A stretch of 64,000 bases of DNA from Heliocidaris erythrogramma (taxonomy: Eukaryota > Echinodermata > Echinoidea > Camarodonta > Echinometridae): NCBI GenBank assembly GCA_025617745.1, contig CM046869.1:4922244-4986243 (forward strand), read 5' to 3'. The translations under genes were made by a program, and so were the position numbers. This document shows positions 3,437-50,500 of this stretch, one piece after another. Position 1 is the stretch's first letter, and the number at the start of each line of letters is the position of its first letter. The notes below the pieces were generated by a model. That model was not told where the DNA came from, made no database searches, and was given only the letters and a program-made list of their open reading frames with translations.

Positions 3437-4024
3437 TAACTTGCATATATTGTAGTACAGGGATGTGCTGCTTAGAAGACCACCATTCTCGTACGTTCTC
3501 AAGGAACAAAAGTGCTCATATTTCTCCCTTCCCCCACCCCCCTAAGCGCCCCATTCCCTATAACTCTCGCATACGTACGTCCATTCAATTGCTTGTGCAT
3601 GCACTATAGAATCCCCATACTAAGTCCCATAGCTCCTTAGACCATGTTTTTTCGCTCAGCTGGGTATAGTTCCACCGTTCCAAAGACCCTTTGTCTTTCG
3701 CTTCTATTCACTTCCTTAGATCCCCCATTTAGGGGTTGGCTGAGGCATCCTCGTCAACATAAAACATAAAACTCAACCTTTCACTGATATCTGCTTCTTT
3801 GATTTTTCTGCTATTAAAATGCATTTATTTTGGGGGTTTAATTCTCCTTTAACACATAAACCAGTAATGATCATCCAGCCTTTACACCATTTGCTGCAAG
3901 TAAGGAGGCTCGCTTGTGTAGGGTATCTGGCTTACAAATGAAAACATTTGAGGCCATTCACCAGTGCTCTGCAGGCTTGAAAATTTCACTATTTCCTTTA
4001 AAAATTCATTTATGTGACAGATAG

Positions 4025-7202: not shown

Positions 7203-7478
7203 GGCTTGTCTCGAATGGGTGGGGTGCGGGAGCGGGATGGGAGCGGGATGGGAGCGGGAACGGGCACACCCTTTCGAGACAAGCCCCCCCGGTTATCTCG
7301 AATGGACGCGTTCCCAGCGAGAAGTTCAATGAACGCGCCACTTCGAGACAACCGGGGGGGCTTTCCTCGAATGAGTGTGTTGAGTAGACTTTTGTAACAG
7401 ACGTTTTAGAATTTTTTTTGAAAAATGTACTCTTGCTGGTTTTTTCGTTTTTCTTTTGTCTAAGATGTAGAAAATATA
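7203..7478 (+). repeat. Left terminal inverted repeat of the 2.4-kb element
   Basis: It contains the word TCTCGAA or its complement four times in alternating orientation, plus a GGGAGCGGGAT minisatellite and two C/G heptamers. The alternating words make sub-hairpins and could be transposase binding sites (inference). Confidence 0.85.
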
Positions 7479-7635: not shown

Positions 7636-8545
7636 TTAAAGGAGAATTAACCTAAACAAATGCAGACGAAAGTGTTCAAAGGTGTTATTTATTCCTACTT
7701 GTTAGACTATATGGCTTCGCGCCAAAATTTACGAGATCGATACGAATCAAGATTTTCTGAGCAAAATTTATCATCTGCTCGCAACATGTATCGTCTGCTA
7801 GCAGTACATGGGGGCCGCCATTTTTTTTATGTGTACATGAAGATTTTCTTAATCCAAATGCTCAATTGCCTCTTTCAAAATTAAAAACCCGTTTGAGATT
7901 AAAAATATAGAATAGATATGTCAATTTATTTTTAAACTGACGATTTCCTTATATATTTCTGTTGAAAATCGATATTCGCTTAATAGAAATCTATTTTCTC
8001 GATACTGTGACGCATGGGACGGAGCAAATTAATTCAAATTTATGGATGCTTCTTCCCGAGCATCTATAGCGGCAAACTATGCATTCACCTGATTTCGGAT
8101 AATGGACTTGAAAAGTCAGAATGCATGCTGCATATATTATGTTCTGCTCTGTTTGGCAAACCCAAGAAAATAGATTTTTGTTAAGCAAAACCAGACAATT
8201 TAAAAAATCATTATAAAGATTTAATTTTTATAATACATGTAAACACCCACTTTATATTTTTTGTCACATATGGGATTTTAGGTAATGAAGAAAAGCAATT
8301 TAGGTTTTGGATTCAAAATATCTTCTTGACTGGAACATTTCTCAATGGTTCATGTACAAATCCAAATCAGCAAGAAAATGGCAGCCCCCATGGAAATGAG
8401 TAGGAGACGATACCGGGTGTTGGAATATCTTTATTTATACCCTTTTCTGATTATCTTATTAGAAAATGATTTAGGCCAACAAGTAGGAATATATTACACC
8501 TTCCAATATAAGTAAATTTGTAATTAGGGGTTGATTCTCCTTTAA
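7636..8545. mobile_element. Kolobok-like TTAA MITE, copy A
   Basis: TTAA at 7636-7639 and 8542-8545 flanks the ends AGGAGAATT (left) and its complement GATTCTCCT (right). Inside, about 200 bp at each end are diverged inverted copies: the left has GGTGTTATTTATTCCTACTT and the right, read in complement, has GGTGTAATATATTCCTACTT. Copy B at 18099-18997 is nearly identical over the whole length. The terminal word matches the THAP-carrying element at 42510, which points to the Kolobok superfamily. Open frames of 60-75 codons inside show no domain and are not called as genes. Confidence 0.85.
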
Positions 8546-9346: not shown

Positions 9347-9623
9347 TATATTTTCTACATCTTAGACAAAAGAAAAACGAAAAAACCAGCAAGAGTACAT
9401 TTTTTCAAAAAAAAATCTAAAACGTCTATTACAAAAGTCCTACTCAACACACTCATTCGAGGAAAGCCCCCCCGGTTGTCTCGAAGTGGCGCGTTCATTG
9501 AACTTCTCGCTGGGAACGCGTCCATTCGAGATAACCGGGGGGGCTTGTCTCGAAAGGGTGTGCCCGTCCCGCTCCCATCCCGCTCCCTTCCCGCTCGCGC
9601 ACCCCACCCATTCGAGACAAGCC
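9347..9623 (-). repeat. Right terminal inverted repeat of the 2.4-kb element
   Basis: This is the inverted mate of 7203-7478, with small differences in the GGGAGCGGGAT tract. The 9-bp direct repeat GTTACACAT follows at 9624-9632. Confidence 0.85.
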
Positions 9624-11418: not shown

Positions 11419-12266
11419 TTAAAGGAAAAGTCTCTATACCCTGGTAGGGGGAGTTGATTTGAATACAAGCAGAAAATGAGAGAAGCAGGTTAGTACAATG
11501 TTTGAGCAAAATCCTATGATAAATTTAAAGAAAGTTATGAATGTTTGAAGCTGTAATCAAAACAAATTCATGAAATTTCATTTCCTTAATTTTTGATGAA
11601 GGAGTTGTTTCATACAGGTTTTGCATGAAAGCATATAAGCAATGATTATATATCTAAAGTGTAGGCCTATCTATGTTTGAATATTTTCTTTCGAGAAAAT
11701 GGAAATGGGAGAGGAGTTCGCAAGATATATCACAGAGTTGCCAATTTTTTGTATGACTGTTTGATTATACAACTTTAGAAATTCATAAGGAGGCGAGTCG
11801 GCTCAGTCTGTAAAGCGTCTGCCTGTCGAACCAAAGATCGTGGGTTCGAATCCACCCCGGGCGGATGACTGAAGCCTGCGTTGTGTGTTAACGCGCCCCT
11901 CCCTTGTTTCAAAGACGCAGGCTATGTTACAGTGGAAAACACTCCGTCCCTCGGATAGGACGTTAAATGGAGGTCCCGTGTAGAGGACAGTCACCACCTT
12001 TGCACGTTAACAACCCACTGTACTAGCGAATAAGAAAGCCCGGTGTAGTGGTACACCTGCACATCGGGAGGAGAGACCTAAGGGTGACAGTGATTCAGTT
12101 CGCTTTCCCCCTCCTAGGCCCATGTGACGCCAAATACTTATTGGTAATAACTTTCTTATTTCTTAACGGATTTTGCTTAAACATTCATTGATCCGTTTCT
12201 TTATCTATTTTTTGTTTTATTGCTTTTATAAAAAAAATTGTAATCAGGGTGGATTTTCTCCTTTAA
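11419..12266. mobile_element. TTAA element, copy D, interrupted by a SINE
   Basis: TTAA at 11419-11422 and 12263-12266 flanks AGGAAAAGTCTC on the left and, in complement, AGGAGAAAATCCACCC on the right. Internal words (GTTTGAGCAAAATCC near 11501; GGGAGAGGAGTTCGCAAGAT near 11708) match the element at 34560-35110, so they are the same family. A SINE occupies about 11790-12140, which accounts for its greater length. Confidence 0.65.
11790..12140 (+). repeat. tRNA-derived SINE inserted in a TTAA element
   Basis: It has an A-box-like TCGGCTCAGTCTGTAAAGCG near 11798 and a perfect B-box GGTTCGAATCC at 11842. The body contains TCGGATAGGACGTTAAA near 11952 and TGCACGTTAACAACCCACT near 12001. The surrounding sequence matches the uninterrupted copy at 34560, so the SINE arrived later. 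Confidence 0.75.
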
Positions 12267-16451: not shown

Positions 16452-17261
16452 CTAAAAGAATCGGACGTTCTCGTCACCTTCGTTCGGAACAGGCAAGCGA
16501 TATGCTGGCAAAGAGATTTTCCTGGCTTTACTTCTATCCTCAGTTTTCATTAGAAAGCCTTTCCTCGGTTTACTCGAGCTTAGGTCATTAACTACATCGT
16601 CCACAAAACGAACTCGATGTTGATGTCCGTTTGTGGGACTGTCTGGTTTGATGGTATTGTTGTTATGGTGTCTCATTCCACCTATCTGCTGTGACGTCGG
16701 ACCCGTGTGTACCGTGCATCGTCTTCCATTTGGTCGTCGACTGGACATCATCGGATACGGTGATGACATGCGTTCTGTCTCGCTGCTGTTGTCGTGACTG
16801 CTACTGCTCTCGTCGTGATGCGAATCATCGCTCGACTTAGCTCCATTGCTGCGGTCATCTTCCGACATGGACATTGATATCCCTCGGGTGTCGTGTAAAC
16901 TACTGATTAGTTTTTCATTGGCTTTATTCAGTGCATTGATTTGTTTCTCCTGCTTCATAACTTGGCGTTCCAGCTCGCGGATGCGACGATCCTTATCGCC
17001 AAGCTTCGAGACGATCTCCTGTCTCTCTCGCTTCAAACATCCTTCAAAGTACATAAGATCTGAGATCAGATCGGTAAACTGTGTGTCCTTCTCGTGTGCC
17101 TGCGACATGACTTTGTCTTCGCTCTCTTCGAGCTTGAGTTTCCAGCCTGCTAAGAGTTGTCTAGTGCGTGTCTTCTGAAGGTCCATCTGATGACCCATCT
17201 CGCCCAGAGTATGCTGTGCCGACGCCAGCTTCTCGCGGAGTAGCTTTACCTCGTTTTCCAA
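16452..17261 (-). CDS. Terminal exon: coiled-coil protein, RasGAP SynGAP/DAB2IP-like C-terminus
   Basis: A 269-codon exon ends in TAG (16452-16454) and begins after a strong acceptor, so the upstream part of the gene is missing from this call. Residues 1 to about 125 are heptad-rich coiled coil. The stretch K-L-E-E-S-E-D-K (43-50), E-K-D-T-Q-F (57-62), L-I-S-D-L-M (65-70), then K-Q-I-N-A-L-N-K-A-N-E-K-L (106-118) matches, in order and spacing apart from about 7 extra residues, the pattern I know from the C-terminal coiled coil of SynGAP/DAB2IP/RASAL2 RasGAPs. These act on Ras/Rap at membranes; the GAP domain is not seen here. Residues 128-175 are rich in Ser, Asp and His. R-V-R-F at 216-219 fits a PP1-docking RVxF motif. 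R-K-I-S at 247-250 resembles a basophilic kinase site. The exon call is firm. The family call is moderate; another coiled-coil protein is possible. Confidence 0.82.
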   Translation of the reverse strand: MENEVKLLREKLASAQHTLGEMGHQMDLQKTRTRQLLAGWKLKLEESEDKVMSQAHEKDTQFTDLISDLMYFEGCLKRERQEIVSKLGDKDRRIRELERQVMKQEKQINALNKANEKLISSLHDTRGISMSMSEDDRSNGAKSSDDSHHDESSSSHDNSSETERMSSPYPMMSSRRPNGRRCTVHTGPTSQQIGGMRHHNNNTIKPDSPTNGHQHRVRFVDDVVNDLSSSKPRKGFLMKTEDRSKARKISLPAYRLPVPNEGDENVRFF

Positions 17262-17295
17262 CTGTAGAAGGGGGAGTAACAAAAGAGAGACAATG
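17262..17295 (-). promoter_or_regulatory. Splice acceptor of the terminal exon
   Basis: Read on the minus strand, a pyrimidine tract (CTCTCTTTTGTTACTCCCCC) leads to TTCTACAG and then the exon start TTGGAAAACGAG. A possible branch point TTAAC lies about 30 nt upstream. The reading frame enters the exon at a codon boundary (phase 0), which is the simplest reading. Confidence 0.85.
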
Positions 17296-18098
17296 TTAAC
17301 AAAATACATATTAAAATGGATTAAACTGAGTTGCAACCTATTTAAAAGAAACTCACTAGAATAGGAATCCTTCTAACTGAAATCTCTCCTTTCCCCCTTT
17401 ACAAAGAGGACTTGGTACAGCTTTCATAAGAAAGAAACAGCCTTAATAATAATCTATGAAGACCCAGTTGTACTTTTCAGACTCAGCTTAATAGAAGGTG
17501 TAAATCTTATATAGGGAGTCCTCACAGAACCTACGGTCTTAAGAGAAGAAATGAAGTTTCTTACAACTATGGTAGTCTGACAACAAAGATTTCGTCGAAC
17601 TTCTGTCAGCTGTTTAGCAAATATACTTTTTCAGTCAGCGAGCAAACTTGAAAAGAGGGTACTGCTGGGTAGTTGATAAAAAAGAAGGAAACACAAAGGT
17701 AAGCATGTTTCTTTAAAGAAACATGTATACAGCCTCTAGATATGCAAACAACTGTATTCCAGGAGGAATGCATACCCTGTGGACTTTTAAACATCAAAGT
17801 TAATGAAGTTGCTTTATGCCATCGTTCCCTACCTAATTATTACAACCCAGAATTTCGTTTAGAATCCCACTGGAGATAAACTAAACAACTTCCATAGTCT
17901 CATCAACTGTAATCGTTGTATTCTTTTGAATGAAAATGTATTTTCGTGTTCAGTCTAAAAAAGTTTGACGATTAAAACAATCAAACAAGGTAGAGATCCA
18001 CCTTTGATAAAATGATGAAGGGCTGTTCAGAATTGTCCGGTAACGATAACAACTAGATTTGTCATTATAGGCACACTTTAGAGGCTGCTCTGGTAATA
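17296..18098 (-). other. Probable intron, no recognised feature
   Basis: AT-rich sequence upstream of the acceptor on the minus strand. I find no second exon with convincing splice signals here. The intron probably continues far to the right. Confidence 0.4.
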
Positions 18099-18997
18099 TT
18101 AAAGGAGAATTACGCTCAAAAATAAAGACGATAGTGTTCAAAGGTGTTATTTATTCTTACTTGTTAGACTATATGGCTTCGCGTCAAAATATACGAGATC
18201 GATACGAATCAAGATTTTCTGAGCAAAATTTATCATCTGCTAGCAATATGTATCGTCTGCTAGCAGCACACGGGGGCTGCCATTTTGTTTATGTGTACAA
18301 GAAGATTTTCTTAATCCAAATGCTCAATTGCCTTTTTCAAAATTAAAAACCCATTTGAGATTAAAAATATAGAATAGATATGTCAATTTATTTTTAAACT
18401 GAAGATTTCCTTATATATTTCTGTTGAAAATGGATATTCGCTTAATAGAAATCTATTTTCTCGATACTGGACGTATGGGATGGAGCAAATTAATTCAAAT
18501 TTTATGGATGCTTCTTCCCTGAGCATCTATAGCGGCAAACTATGCATTCACCTGCTTTCGGATAATGGACTTGAAAAGTCAGAATGCATGCTGCATATAT
18601 TATGTTCTGCTCTGTTTGGCAAACCCAAGAAAATAGATTATAAAAATAGATTTAAAAGTATCATTATAAAGATTTAATTTTTATAATACATGTAAACACC
18701 CACTTTATATTTTCCGTCACATATGGGATTTTAGGTAATGAAGAAAATCAATTTAGGATTTGGATTCAAAATATCTTCCTGACTGGAACATTTCTCAATG
18801 GTTCATGTACAACTCCAAATCAGCAAGAAAATTGCAGCCCACATGTAAATGAGTAGGAGACGATACCGGGTGTTGGAATATCTTTATTTATACCCTTTTC
18901 TGATATCTTATTAGAAAATGATTTAGGCCAATAAGTAGGAATATATTACACCTTCCAATATAAGTAAATTTGTAATCAGGGCTTAATTCTCCTTTAA
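18099..18997. mobile_element. Kolobok-like TTAA MITE, copy B
   Basis: TTAA at 18099-18102 and 18994-18997 flanks AGGAGAATTA and its complement. The sequence matches copy A (7636-8545) almost throughout, with scattered substitutions and a few short indels (for example near 18635). It lies in the probable intron of the minus-strand gene. Confidence 0.85.
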
Positions 18998-20974: not shown

Positions 20975-21914
20975 TTAAAGTAGATATTCAAAGAAAATCA
21001 CAAATATGGCAATTAATGTATCACTAGAAACTGGGAAGCTTACAGATGGCAATCTTATAAGTTTTATGTCAACTGCGTATCTGGTGATTATAAAAACAAC
21101 ACAAATAAAAGCTCTTCTCAGCATCTGGAATATCCGATGATTCGCCAGAAATATAGCGATGTTTTGATGTCGTCACACTCGGGATCGATCCTGCTTAAGC
21201 AGACGACGTCCTATAATGAATGAACGTAATTGCAATGCAATTATTTATCAAATTATAAAGAGTTTGGTGTATTTAAACATGACCTTATTTCACACCATTA
21301 TAAAGGGAAAGTGAAACTGATTCTTATAGCTAAAACCGTTTGATTGTAAATACATAGGAGAAGGGTCAATGATCAATGAAATAAACCCCACTTTCAAATT
21401 GAAAAGCCCTCCGAATAATAGCAGGATGGTATTCGTTCCCTCTTGAAACGCCGAACATGCCCCGGTGCAAACAGCTGAAAATACAATGGCGTCTTATTTT
21501 GTTTACAAGTGACTGATTCCTTTATTTTTTTAACGCTGCATTTTTCATCAAAATAATACCATACACGAAGTTAAGAGTGAGGCAACAGACTAACATTAAG
21601 ACTGACGCTAGTGAAGGAAGAGAAATAAGTGAAGAGGAGATGACAAAATAGGCTCTGAAAAATGTGTAAGATGTTATGGGACATCGTCTGCTTAGACAGG
21701 ACTGGTCCAGGGTGTGTCGTCACATATCTCAGCAGCGTTCGAGGAGCTCTTCAGCTGCTATATCGGGGGCTGTATTTTACCGTTTTATAATTGATAATAA
21801 TCATTACTTCAAATGTTTCCAAGCGTTGAATTTGGATAACCTTGTTTAATTTATGCCATCTATGCAATAATAAGTATTAAGCCAATATTTAAAATCATCA
21901 ACGTTCTACTTTAA
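20975..21914 (+). mobile_element. TTAA element with long degenerate inverted ends, copy 1
   Basis: TTAA at 20975-20978 and 21911-21914 flanks AGTAGATATTC and, in complement, AGTAGAACGTT. About 190 bp inside each end lies an inverted pair of ~47-bp motifs (21168-21214 and 21676-21722) sharing TGTCGTCACAC and CTTAAGCAGACGA-type words. The outer ~190 bp on each side are also weakly inverted. A second copy lies inverted at 39889-40838. No transposase is present. Confidence 0.75.
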
Positions 21915-23944: not shown

Positions 23945-24082
23945 GGGGAGCGTTTCATCAAGTGTTTTGTCAGTGATTTTTACCGACAACTGTTATAAGC
24001 TACTGATATCGTTGGATCTGATTGGCTGAGAGCAAATTTGTCAGTAAAAATCACTGACAAAACGCTTGATGAAACACTCCCC
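23945..24082. mobile_element. Palindromic foldback MITE, copy 1
   Basis: The arms of ~39 bp start GGGGAGCGTTTCATCAAG and contain TTTTGTCAGTGATTTTTAC; the right arm is the complement ending at 24082. The centre is GACAACTGTTATAAGCTACT and following. Copies of the same family lie at 41906 and 42107. Confidence 0.85.
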
Positions 24083-31617: not shown

Positions 31618-32245
31618 TTTTTTTTAAAAGAATCTTTTATTACTTCCTTTTTCAAAATAACATTTTCACAATAATCAAAGTAAAATACACGGACAAATAT
31701 ATTCACATGCAGTATCATTGTACCAAATTACATAATATTAATAAGTAACCATAATATTTCACATGCATGTATTAAATAGTAAATTATGCAATATCTGGAA
31801 TTCTTTATTATAATTTTAAAAAAAAGCCCCCCCCCCCCCCCTTGCCATTGTGTCCGTTGTTCCGCCCCAGATTCTAAAAGACTACAGTTCAGAATTGTCT
31901 TCATGATTATGATGTTATTAAGCATACTTAGCTCCCCATGTCCATCCCTACGTCCCAGAAATCATAATTTTCCCATTTTCTAAGGTGTAATGAGAGGGTA
32001 CCTCTCTCCAAGGCCAATTTTTTCTCTTCTAATCGATTGTCTGAAATCATTGCTTTAATTTCTTTTTCGGTCGGAGGTATCGCTCTTTTCCTACAATGGA
32101 AAGTCATATATTTAACTAATAGAATAAGATGATTTACTACATTTTCTCTCCCCACATTTTCCATATTAATTCCTAAATAAATTTTCTCCCAGTTCAAATC
32201 TTTCAAAATAGGATACTTGAATTCAATGCTAACCTTTTCCCACAT
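31618..32245 (-). pseudogene. 3' end of an L1/Tx1-like LINE (ORF2 tail, poly-A)
   Basis: Minus-strand codons 32245-31928 give about 105 residues including N-V-V-N-H-L-I-L-L-V-K-Y, K-E-I-K-A-M-I and L-H-L-R-K-W. This is the pattern found after the reverse-transcriptase domain of L1/Tx1-like LINEs (N-x-I-L-L-x-K-x-x-I, then ..KW). About 300 bp of 3' UTR follows, with AATAAAAG near 31641 (minus strand) and an A-run at 31619-31626, as expected for an L1-type 3' end. It is 5'-truncated; no RT catalytic motif is present. A poly-C run at 31818-31831 lies in the UTR. Confidence 0.55.
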
Positions 32246-32259
32246 ATTTTGAATGTGTC

Positions 32260-34559: not shown

Positions 34560-35110
34560 TTAAAGGTGAAGTCCACCCCAATATCAACTTGGATTTAAAA
34601 GAAACAGAAAAAAAAATAAAGGAACAGATCAATGAAAGTTTGAGCAAAATCCGATAAGAAATAATTAACTTTTGAAGTTGTAATAAATCAAAACACAAAC
34701 TTGCAACTCCGTGACGTATCTTGCGAGCTCCTCTCCCATTCGCCATTTGCCCTGTATTGAAAAAGTCATAAATTTCCATTTTCTCTAAAGAAAATATTTG
34801 ATCATACATGTACCATATATATAAACATTTCAATTATGCTTAAACACAAAAACCTGTATGATACAAATCTATTCCCTCATCAAAAACGAAAAAATAAAAA
34901 AAATTATGAAGTTTTCTGCACTGAGCAAATGGGAGAGGAGCTCGCTAGATACGTCACGGAATTGCCAGTTTGTTTGATTGATCACAACTTCAAACATTCA
35001 GAACTGTCTTACTTCGTATCAGATTCTGCTCAAACTTTTACTAATCGGTTTCTCTCATTTTTCTGCTGTTATTCAGATCAACTGAATACCAGGGTGGACT
35101 TTCCCTTTAA
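34560..35110. mobile_element. TTAA MITE, copy C
   Basis: TTAA at 34560-34563 and 35107-35110 flanks AGGTGAAGTCCACCC and, in complement, AGGGAAAGTCCACCC. The inner parts are also inverted: GGGAGAGGAGCTCG occurs on the plus strand near 34930 and on the minus strand near 34730, and GAAAGTTTGAGCAAAATCCG near 34633 faces its complement near 35030. The interior frames are mirrored repeats, not genes. Confidence 0.8.
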
Positions 35111-39888: not shown

Positions 39889-40838
39889 TTAAAGATCACA
39901 TTGCAAGAAAATTCCATCAAAATAAATATTGGCTTAATACTTATTATTGCATAGATGGCATAAATTAAACAAGGTTATCCAAATTCAACGCTTGGAAACA
40001 TTTGATTTAATGATTATTATCAATTATAAAACGGTAAAATACAGCCCCCGATATAGCAGCTGAAGAGCTCCTTGAACGCTGCTGAGATGTGTGACGACAC
40101 ACGAAGGACCAGTCCTGTCTAAGCAGACGATGTCCCATAACATCTTACACATTTTCAGTGCCTGTTTTGTCATCTCCTCTTCACTTATTTCTCTTACTTG
40201 ACTAGCGTCAGTCTTAATGTTAGTCTGTTGCCTCACTCTTAACTTCGTGTATGGTATTATTTTGATGAAAAATGCAGCGTTAAAAAATAAAGGAATCAGT
40301 CACTTGTAAACAAAATAAGACGCCATTGTATTTTCAGCTGCTTGCACCGGGGCATGTTCGGCGTTTCAAGAGGGAACGAATACAATCTGTGATATTATTC
40401 GGAGGGCTTTTCAATTTGAAAGTGGGGTTTATTTCATTGATCATTGACCCTTCTCCTGTGTATTTACTATCAAACGGTTTTAGTTATCAGAATCGGTTCA
40501 CTTTCCCTTTTAGAATGGTGTGAAATAAGGTCATGTTTAAATGTACCAAACTCTTTATAATTTGATAAATAATTGCATTGCAGTTACGTTTATTCATTAT
40601 AGGACGTCGTCTGCTTAAGCAGGATTGTTCCCTAGTGTGACGACATCAAAACTTCGCTATATTTCTGGCGAATCCTCGGATATTCCAGATGCTGAGAAGA
40701 GCTTTTATTTGTGTTGTTTTTATAATCATCATATACGCAGTTGACATAAAACTTATACGGTTGCCATCTGTAAGCTTCCCAGTTTCTAGTGATACATTAA
40801 TTGCCATATTTGTGATTTTCTTTGGATAGTTACTTTAA
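39889..40838 (-). mobile_element. TTAA element with long degenerate ends, copy 2 (inverted)
   Basis: Sequence 39915-40825 is a close reverse complement of 20985-21900. TTAA occurs at both outer edges (39889-39892 and 40835-40838). The last ~25 bp on the left edge no longer match copy 1. It retains the two internal motifs with CTAAGCAGACGA and GACGTCGTCTGCTTAAGCAG. Confidence 0.75.
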
Positions 40839-41900: not shown

Positions 41901-41905
41901 TTTAT

Positions 41906-42041
41906 GGGGAGCGTTTCATCAAGCGTTGTCAGTGGTTTTTACTGACAAATTTGCTCTCAGCCATACAGATGCACGGATTTCAGTAGCTTATAACAGTTGT
42001 CGGTAAAAATCACTGACAAAACGTGTGATGAAACGCTCCCC
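41906..42041. mobile_element. Palindromic foldback MITE, copy 2
   Basis: The arms start GGGGAGCGTTTCATCAAGCG and end with the complement ACGTGTGATGAAACGCTCCCC-like. The central CCATACAGATGCACGGATTT is identical to that of the next copy. Confidence 0.85.
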
Positions 42042-42106
42042 TGGAGATTTACCTTATATGTAGTGCAGAGCGAAATCTTGTTTAGCGTACATCTGTTAAT
42101 CTATAC

Positions 42107-42247
42107 CAGGGAGCATTTCATCAAGTGTTTTGTCAGTGATTTGTACCGACAAATTTGCTCTCAGCCATACAGATGCACGGATTTCAGTAGCTTATAACAG
42201 TTGTCGGTAAAAATCACTGACAACACGTGTGATGAAACGTTCCCCAG
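42107..42247. mobile_element. Palindromic foldback MITE, copy 3
   Basis: Almost identical to 41906-42041 from the loop to the right end, only 65 bp away and in the same orientation. This suggests local tandem duplication rather than two independent insertions. Confidence 0.85.
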
Positions 42248-42509
42248 TATCGTCATATCGGTAAATTTTGATTTCTCACATTCTGAAGATGGCCAGGTGT
42301 ATCCGTTTTTTTTCGACAACATGGGCGACGACATCTTGCACTGATGGAAATATATTGTATGCTATTACACACATTATGAAGGTTGACGGAGACATGCCAT
42401 GGTAAATTAAAGAAGCCAGTTTCTCCAAAAGGTCTTTACAATACGGACGTTCCAGCTCGTGCATTGTCACGTTCATGACGTTTAAGAAAAGTGGAACTTT
42501 TGACAGTTT

Positions 42510-43463
42510 TTAAAGGAGAATTATCCCCAGGCTTTTAAATGTAAATAGGGTCATAGTGAATAAAATAACATTTAATTTGATATAAAAATCACCGTTTTAG
42601 ACCAACTGATGCCGTTGTAAGAGCAGAAAATAGAGACCACTTTTTACGATGTCTACTCCTACTGGCGGCGTCCATTTTCTCTAAATTTCCCATAAAACCT
42701 TGCGCGTGATGACGTAGGGGATGGAGAACTCACTAGCTAGTAGCTAGCTTGCATGAAGCGCGCGCTGCATATACACACGGTAAACATGGTGTATTGTCAA
42801 GCGTTCGGCTGTTGTAACTGTTCCAAGAAAACGATAGGGAAATCATTCCATCGGTTCCCAGACCCGCAGAAATGTCAGCAATTGTTCAAGCATTGGGTGA
42901 CCATATTGAACGTGGAAAAATTCCAAGGAAAAGACTTCAAACTTGATCGGAAAAATGATGTGATCTGCAGTGATCATTTCACGGAGGCCGATTATCACGT
43001 AGATCTGCGGGCTAAGCTTATGCCCAGGCGAATCGTATAATCAAGCTAGTGTGTCCTGGAACACGTTTTACTTACGATGATTATTTTACTCTAATAAATG
43101 TTTTTCAAATGTGATAGTTACGTAGATAATATAAATTGATTTATTTAATTTAATTATGAAACTCTTGCGTAATTTATGTTATTATTAATAATAATTAACT
43201 CTTTTTAAAATAATGTTGGTGAACTATTGCGAGCCAATTACAATGCGCTACGGCCAACTCCATGCCCTACGTCACACAGCCCGATCGCACCGGGAACATG
43301 GCGACGCTGCTTTACTCTCGAGAACAATAAAAATCGGAGGATTCAATCGACAATTCCCATCCTCTCGATTCTCGAATATACGATGTTTTTACTTTATCAG
43401 AAACTGTTTAGAATTCTGTTTTAGGTCAATGATAAAAGTCTCGTGGGGATAATTCTCCTTTAA
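42510..43463. mobile_element. Kolobok-type DNA transposon remnant with THAP exon
   Basis: TTAA at 42510-42513 and 43460-43463 flanks a perfect 16-bp inverted end, AGGAGAATTATCCCCA. The interior carries a THAP zinc-finger coding segment (42786-43040). TTAA duplication together with a THAP domain in the transposase is the known signature of Kolobok; P elements also have THAP but make 8-bp duplications. The rest of the transposase is missing. The terminal word is shared with the MITEs at 7636 and 18099. Confidence 0.85.
42786..43040 (+). CDS. THAP-type zinc-finger domain (transposon-derived)
   Basis: 84 residues start at M-V-Y-C. An upstream ATG at 42753 would add 11 residues outside the domain, so 42786 fits THAP proteins better, because they begin right at the finger. 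C4 and C9 (C-x4-C), C61 and H64 (C-x2-H) give the C2CH zinc ligands. P25, W37 and F65 are the usual invariant core positions. The closing L-M-P-R-R-I-V corresponds to the A-V-P-T region. THAP domains bind DNA, here probably the transposon ends. The frame stops at TAA 43038, just after the domain; a weak donor (ATCGTATAA) nearby suggests it may be exon 1 of a spliced transposase. It is far shorter than a full transposase, so no transposition activity is expected. The domain looks intact. Confidence 0.85.
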   Translation: MVYCQAFGCCNCSKKTIGKSFHRFPDPQKCQQLFKHWVTILNVEKFQGKDFKLDRKNDVICSDHFTEADYHVDLRAKLMPRRIV

Positions 43464-44314: not shown

Positions 44315-44520
44315 GGAGAGAAGAATTTTAATCTGTTGTCTCACGATGTAGCAAACGTAGGAGAGATGCACGACGTTTCGGATGCAACTGTTATCCTTCA
44401 TCAGGCAATGAGGACGAACTCTGCGGCGAGCGTGTTATATAGCGCTGTTATATAGCCGAACGTCGTGCATCTCTCCTACGTTTGCTACATCGTGAGACAA
44501 CAGATTAAATTCTTCTCTCC
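44315..44520. repeat. 206-bp palindrome with ~62-bp arms
   Basis: The left arm GGAGAGAAGAATTTTAATCT, then GTTGTCTCACGATGTAGC, then ACGTAGGAGAGATGCACGAC is mirrored at 44456-44520 with only about one indel. The loop (~80 bp) contains TTTCGGATGCAACTG and CCTTCATCAGG. The high arm identity implies recent origin or gene-conversion upkeep. Confidence 0.85.
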
Positions 44521-45391: not shown

Positions 45392-45462
45392 TGCCCCGAC
45401 AGGGATTCGAACCCGGGACCCTGGATACATGACCAGTGCTCTGCCAACTGAGCTATCCGGGC
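45392..45462 (-). tRNA. tRNA-like sequence (pseudo-tRNA or SINE head)
   Basis: On the minus strand a 71-base sequence starts GCCCGGATAGCTCAGTTGGC (A-box and D-arm intact) and has a T-arm with GGTTCGAATCC (B-box) and 3' TCGGGGCA. The acceptor stem pairs at six of seven positions. The anticodon arm is one base short, and the T-stem has a mismatch. A functional tRNA is therefore unlikely; a tRNA pseudogene or the head of a SINE fits better. An anticodon cannot be assigned safely. Confidence 0.55.
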
Positions 45463-49785: not shown

Positions 49786-50500
49786 ATGATGATGACAATG
49801 ACAATGATTTTATTTCCCATGTCACCCCTTCCAGGGTATTGGAGAAACAATAATTCAATAATTAAAAAAGCTATGAAACAAAGCTAAACTACAACAAAAC
49901 AACCCAAAATATAGTAGGTGCACCAATCAGTATATACATTGTATATACATATTTGAATATTATATATTGTACAATATTTAAGCATGGAGGGACATTATCC
50001 CCCGACAGAATTTCGCTAGATTAGTTAAAACCTTCATATCTTTAGAATTAAACAATTATTGCTCCATTTTCAATGAACTTGGTCTGTTTCGGAAGCACGG
50101 TTTTACAAATCTCTTTCTCATAGCATCTGTTGCCGAGCATTAAAAAATATAATGAAATTCATCCCCAATCTTATTTTGCCTGCACAACGTACAAATTCTG
50201 TCTTTTCTTGCAATATTGACATACATGTACATGTATCTACCAGTTTCAACAGGAAGTTTAGGATTTGAGCAACGAAATTTCGACAAATGATTTGAAAAAG
50301 GTAATTTGATAAGGTAGTTTTCAAGACCAACATTGTTCTTCAAAATTCTATAATTACTGCAATACGTCCTTTCATGGATATTACTTCTCCAATTTTGCGA
50401 ATAAATGTCTCTTAATCTCAATCTAATCGCTGAACTAAACCATGAATAAGAAACATTTCTGTTGTCATAAAATATATTAGACATACCAATCTCGTGGGAC
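49786..50500 (-). pseudogene. LINE 3' fragment: end of reverse-transcriptase protein with CxxC..H..C remnant
   Basis: The minus-strand frame gives W-F-S-S-A-I-R-L-R-L-R-D-I, N-H-L-S-K-F-R-C, then C-T-L-C-R-Q-N-K-I-G-D-E-F-H-Y-I-F, a stop (50140-50142), C-S-A-T-D-A-M-R-K-R-F, another stop, and L-T-N-L-A-K-F-C-R-G-I. This is the usual C-terminus of many invertebrate LINE proteins (C-x2-C, I-G-D-E-x-H, C). Two in-frame stops show it is dead. The element ends near GGGAAATAAAATCATTGTCA at about 49795-49830 with a short ATTGTC/ATC tandem tail. The RT catalytic region is absent. Confidence 0.75.

Follow-up and report, generated by a model that had tools for sequence, protein, structure and literature searches.

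Kolobok transposons are described as having TTAA boundaries and RR ends, and the T2-MITEs of Xenopus as combining TTAA with AGGRR (PMC6004289). According to the same source, Kolobok transposases usually have DDE, THAP, and H2CH motifs, and the 10 full-length Xenopus copies in its Table 5 are 6,763 to 13,907 bp long and all start with AG (PMC6004289). The AVPTIF box, which has been suggested to promote folding of the THAP finger (PMC6944463), is only partly conserved in these proteins. In its strict form it is listed for 17 of 38 Kolobok transposases in X. tropicalis and 12 of 24 in X. laevis, and counting similar residues raises these figures to 27 and 23, respectively (PMC6004289). Subterminal THAP sites are bound by the transposases of P and Galileo, the latter a member of the P superfamily. 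They are reported at 53 to 63 and 41 to 51 bp from the ends of P elements, and in Galileo at about 70 bp within a long terminal inverted repeat (TIR), with further ones at 561 to 577 and 701 to 718 bp (PMC3688188).

We analyzed a TTAA-bounded, THAP-carrying segment (here called the THAP element) in a 64,000-nucleotide stretch of DNA from Heliocidaris erythrogramma (the window). Like the T2-MITEs of Xenopus (PMC6004289), it is a short, nonautonomous element with TTAA boundaries and an AGGRR start. It differs from them in carrying a THAP open reading frame (ORF), and the TIR past AGGRR and the host may differ as well. With the full-length Kolobok elements of Xenopus it has in common TTAA, AG-starting ends (for example, AGGAGAAGGAAAGGCT in subfamily A2), and a THAP domain of the kind found in their transposase (PMC6004289). 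However, the full-length copies in Table 5 have DDE and H2CH in addition and are 6,763 to 13,907 bp long, whereas the THAP element has THAP only and is 0.95 kb long. Galileo resembles it in having THAP sites near its ends, but the candidate sites described here are about 190 to 200 bp in, outside a short TIR. Finally, the KP and 66-kDa repressor proteins of P elements are truncated products that keep the N-terminal THAP domain (PMC7776569), and the ORF described here is similar in this respect. However, KP belongs to another superfamily and has 207 aa, compared with 84 aa here. Our ORF lacks the AVPTIF box, and any function of its product would be hypothetical.

A TTAA-bounded segment with perfect inverted ends

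The THAP element spans positions 42510 to 43463 (plus strand) and is 954 bp long including both TTAA sequences. The original prediction was that it has TTAA on both sides and a perfect 16-bp inverted end, and this was confirmed. The left end, TTAA plus AGGAGAATTATCCCCA, is at 42510 to 42529 (plus strand), and the right TIR with its TTAA is at 43444 to 43463 (minus strand). The inverted ends, TTAAAGGAGAATTATCCCCA, match at 16 of 16 bases, or at 20 of 20 if TTAA is included, and AGGAG is next to TTAA at both.

To obtain a null model for inverted pairs, we used 40 simulated sequences with the length and first-order composition of the window and a spacing of 300 to 1500 bp. None contained a perfect 20-bp inverted pair, and 16-bp pairs averaged 0.075 per sequence, figures that understate the background of repeat-rich DNA because other long inverted pairs, from other repeats, occur in the window. 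Because TTAA bounds the segment on either side and sister elements share its end bases (see below), a chance origin is unlikely, and we regard the TTAA-bounded segment as confirmed to be real. TTAA is its own reverse complement, so that a target duplication and a part of the TIR look the same at one locus. When the 300-bp flanks of each of five elements (the THAP element and E1 to E4, below) were joined, no match across the junction was found elsewhere in the window.

Related elements in the window

We scanned the window for the 16-base end, allowing up to 3 mismatches. There were 7 matches compared with 0.71 expected, and none of 100 shuffles reached 7. Two of these are the ends of the THAP element itself, four are the ends of two sister elements, and one is a solo end without a partner at 3833 to 3848. 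The sister elements are E1 (7636 to 8545), with the ends TTAA plus AGGAGAAT, and E2 (18099 to 18997). Twelve end bases are identical in the THAP element, E1, and E2. E1 and E2 agree at 856 of the 896 aligned sites without gaps (95.5%), or at 93.8% over 913 columns when gaps are counted. The 40 differing sites suggest that copying was fairly recent. Among the 15 matches listed for each pair, those between E1 and the THAP element comprise the ends and, beyond them, pieces no longer than 13 bp. Those between E2 and the THAP element comprise the ends and a 16-bp piece, which is the subterminal motif described below. A second copy of the THAP element was not found within the window.

A looser scan with the 14-base TTAAAGGAGAATTA gave 28 places with up to 3 mismatches, 7 of them with 0 or 1, and most of the others are probably chance. 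The places with 3 mismatches include both ends of E3 (11419 to 12266) and the left end of E4 (34560 to 35110), which are possible distant relatives. E3 has the ends TTAA plus AGGAA and TTAA plus AGGAG, and E4 has TTAA plus AGGTG and TTAA plus AGGGA. The two resemble one another (77% over stretches of 154 and 111 bp), and both have TTAA plus AGG at each end, but the AGGTG at the left end of E4 does not fit AGGRR. A 15-base sequence, TCCATTTTCTCTAAA, is common to E4 and the left part of the THAP element.

An open reading frame with a THAP domain

The THAP element contains an 84-codon ORF at 42786 to 43040 (plus strand). It matched the Pfam THAP profile (PF05485) with E = 8.1e-10 and 39.8 bits (cut-off 23.9), and ORF residues 4 to 68 aligned with profile positions 1 to 61 of 87. 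A phmmer search against PDB sequences gave four hits, among them THAP1 (E = 3.7e-5) and THAP2 (E = 4.1e-4). Residues are present at the zinc-ligand positions (C4, C9, C61, and H64), together with P25, W37, and F65, roles that we assigned by comparison with the published C2CH/PWF pattern. The THAP1 alignment reaches ORF residue 80 and then ends. Ungapped continuation along the remainder of THAP1 would presumably place the ORF stop inside the AVPTIF box. Scripted patterns detected no AVPTIF-like peptide in the three forward frames of 42961 to 43463.

This modifies the original prediction, which described an 84-residue THAP domain with all zinc ligands and core residues. The ORF has the zinc ligands and the P/W/F residues but no AVPTIF box, and in this last respect the claim about core residues does not hold. 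The prediction also described the DNA-binding domain as intact. That is an overstatement, because 61 of 87 profile positions are matched and the stop codon falls where the AVPTIF box would be expected. However, the missing box is not decisive for Kolobok membership, because it is only partly conserved in the Xenopus proteins. A single-sequence AlphaFold model of the 84-aa ORF was too poor to use (mean pLDDT of 45.9, pTM of 0.35). The modeled order of strand, helix, and strand agrees with THAP but was not counted as evidence.

Past the stop codon of the ORF, 423 bp of the element remain. Two long plus-strand ORFs after the stop had no Pfam match at E ≤ 0.1, and for these ORFs the prediction that the element has no catalytic part was borne out. 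Neither the DDE catalytic domain nor the H2CH motif of autonomous Kolobok elements was found in them. With no such match in these two ORFs and a whole length of 954 bp, the THAP element cannot be autonomous. Four Xenopus transposases (Tr34, Tr35, Tr37, and Tr38) are said to be without N-terminal regions, and their THAP motifs are degraded in Table 2 of the same paper (PMC6004289). From this we infer that THAP is N-terminal in Kolobok transposases, and therefore the ORF at 42786 to 43040 appears to be the retained beginning of a transposase gene.

Pfam scans of 20 ORFs other than the THAP ORF, half of them with a limit of E ≤ 0.01 and half with E ≤ 0.1, gave one match that passed a curated cut-off, to DAB2P_C. 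A tblastn search of the window for further THAP pieces returned the ORF itself and 15 rows with E values from 1.6 to 10, which were taken as chance. The window yielded no full-length Kolobok element or transposase. In a collection of viral contigs there were no matches to the 20-base end, and 20 pattern matches to the THAP protein included no relative. Prokaryotic genome contigs gave 48 pattern matches and 1 tblastn match to the THAP protein. The tblastn match, which aligns residues 29 to 45 (17 residues) with a Collimonas contig, was rejected as chance; it includes no zinc ligand, and its E value applies to the candidate set only. These collections consist of viruses and prokaryotes, and the scans therefore say nothing about animals.

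An inverted motif inside both ends

A 17-bp motif with the consensus TGACGTAGGG(G/C)ATGGAG is present in inverted orientation inside both ends of the THAP element. The left copy, TGACGTAGGGGATGGAG, is at 42710 to 42726 (plus strand), 200 bp inward from the outer TTAA edge, and the right copy, TGACGTAGGGCATGGAG, is at 43258 to 43274 (minus strand), 189 bp inward. Beyond the TIR, this pair scored highest of all matches between the two ends. None of 300 shuffles reached its score, but this result is nominal because the comparison covered 18 end pairs, of which 4 gave 0 of 300. With one position free and up to 3 mismatches allowed, the motif occurs at 6 places in the window compared with 0.26 expected, a count that includes the THAP element's own two copies, from which the pattern was built. 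Two of the four nonself matches are outside any element (843 and 977). The other two are weaker versions in E1 (8008 to 8024, 3 mismatches of 16) and E2 (18469 to 18485, 2 mismatches of 16, with 0.02 expected at up to 2 mismatches), which are copies of one ancestor and count as one occurrence.

The right copy contains TAGGGCA, which we take to fit the THAP1 core TXXGGCA. The left copy contains TAGGGGAT, which fits TXXGGGX(A/T), cited as a THAP consensus (PMC3464256). Short THAP-site cores were not enriched in the element as a whole, with 4 compared with 2.79 and 1 compared with 0.92 expected by density. In E4, TGACGTA points inward at 153 and 155 bp from the ends. Together the five elements make up 6.5% of the window and contain 4 of its 10 TGACGTA sites, a comparison that was made post hoc. 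We take TGACGTA to resemble a CRE/ATF half site, and therefore a promoter role is an alternative. The inverted 17-mer is no more than a candidate transposase-binding site.

By eye, GCCGCCATTTT-like stretches are also present at 7810 to 7823 and 8376 to 8390 in E1 and at 42663 to 42679 and 43293 to 43309 in the THAP element. They are in inverted orientation, about 150 to 180 bp inside the ends of both elements, and we take them to resemble a YY1 site.

Other features of the window

The DAB2P_C match (E = 6.7e-14, profile positions 392 to 506 of 512) is a host-like coding exon at 16455 to 17372 (minus strand), the C-terminal part of a DAB2IP/SynGAP-type gene. Small palindromic, MITE-like repeats with GGGAGCGTTTCATCA-type ends occur in several copies, including 23945 to 24082 and 41905 to 42250, and are found directly to the left of the THAP element. 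About 1 kb to its right, at 44327 to 44509, there are perfect 51-bp inverted arms that are closely spaced. E1 is flanked by inverted repeats at 7203 to 7478 and 9347 to 9623, with exact stretches of 57, 128, and 58 bp, as if it had landed inside a foldback-like element. A long inverted repeat pair at 20989 to 21891 and 39923 to 40824 has exact stretches of 660 and 233 bp and ORFs of at most 68 aa. Two minus-strand ORFs (31931 to 32257 and 50143 to 50499) resemble, by eye, what we take to be the tails of non-LTR retrotransposon proteins, and Pfam gave no supporting match for them. At gathering score, Rfam gave a single hit in the window, a tRNA match of 43.7 bits at 45392 to 45462 (minus strand), which may be a gene or a tRNA-derived repeat.

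Discussion

We consider it likely that the THAP element is a nonautonomous, internally deleted transposon of the Kolobok superfamily that was moved in trans and retains a relic N-terminal THAP exon. The Kolobok assignment is well supported. We found a TTAA target site, RR/AGGRR terminal bases, and a THAP domain with the C2CH ligands and P/W/F residues, as well as sister elements with the same ends, all of which support the original reading of a Kolobok relic. Kolobok is a DDE cut-and-paste superfamily, and the element would have inserted at TTAA. It would have been moved by a Kolobok transposase made elsewhere that recognizes AGGAGAATTA-type ends and perhaps also the inverted subterminal TGACGTAGGG(G/C)ATGGAG sites. 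The 84-codon ORF would be what is left of the N-terminal THAP-coding part of a transposase, truncated at the position of the AVPTIF box and carried along as a passenger, probably without a present role. The THAP element is a transposon remnant of a known kind and fairly ordinary. Among the items listed in searches of the open-licence literature, none was seen to report a THAP-only Kolobok element.

A different possibility is that the ORF yields a short THAP protein that competes with the full transposase for the subterminal sites, damping transposition as KP does. By analogy, this would be a Kolobok counterpart of the KP system, with the 84-aa mini-protein binding the 17-mer sites at its own and sister ends and limiting movement. 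The ORF is open for 84 codons, and its start context (AACATGG) and an AATAAA at 43093, 53 bp beyond its stop, are a weak fit to a small gene. Inverted subterminal sites are present within the element. There is also a precedent in P elements, where truncated proteins that carry THAP repress transposition and where the 207-aa KP protein can be encoded by small elements (PMC7776569). However, the AVPTIF box is missing, 84 aa is too short for a dimerization region, and the short THAP-site cores are not enriched. Furthermore, the element may be young, in which case the fact that its ORF is open does not point to selection. We therefore think that such a repressor is unlikely.

Co-option, in which splicing would join the THAP ORF to a longer transcript of the host or the element, is less probable still. 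Two acceptor-like sites end at 43400 and 43467, and repeated domestication of Kolobok transposases has been described in Xenopus (PMC6004289). However, between the ORF start and the element end there is no donor with at least 7 of 9 consensus positions (weaker donors are possible), and the nearly perfect transposon ends suggest a mobile copy rather than a settled one.

The presence of a THAP domain, and the binding of subterminal THAP sites by P and Galileo transposases, could also suit a P-type element. P elements make an 8-bp target duplication, but in the 8 bases outside AGG at the two junctions here (left, GTTTTTAA; right, TTAAGTAG), only TTAA is repeated. The sister elements are likewise bounded by TTAA, and we consider a P-type origin very improbable. 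A piggyBac-type element that has a THAP exon by chance or capture would have the TTAA target site, but piggyBac ends next to TTAA start with CCC or CCY and those here are AGGAG, THAP is to our knowledge not a piggyBac domain, and this origin is likewise very improbable.

Read as a nonautonomous, internally deleted Kolobok transposon, the THAP element points to a concrete family of Kolobok type in this genome, for which exact ends, sister elements, and a testable candidate binding site are now described. Because we know of little mapping of Kolobok transposase binding sites, we consider the inverted subterminal 17-mer to be the most useful lead. If the THAP mini-protein were made and active, it would represent KP-type self-limitation in a second superfamily of THAP transposons.
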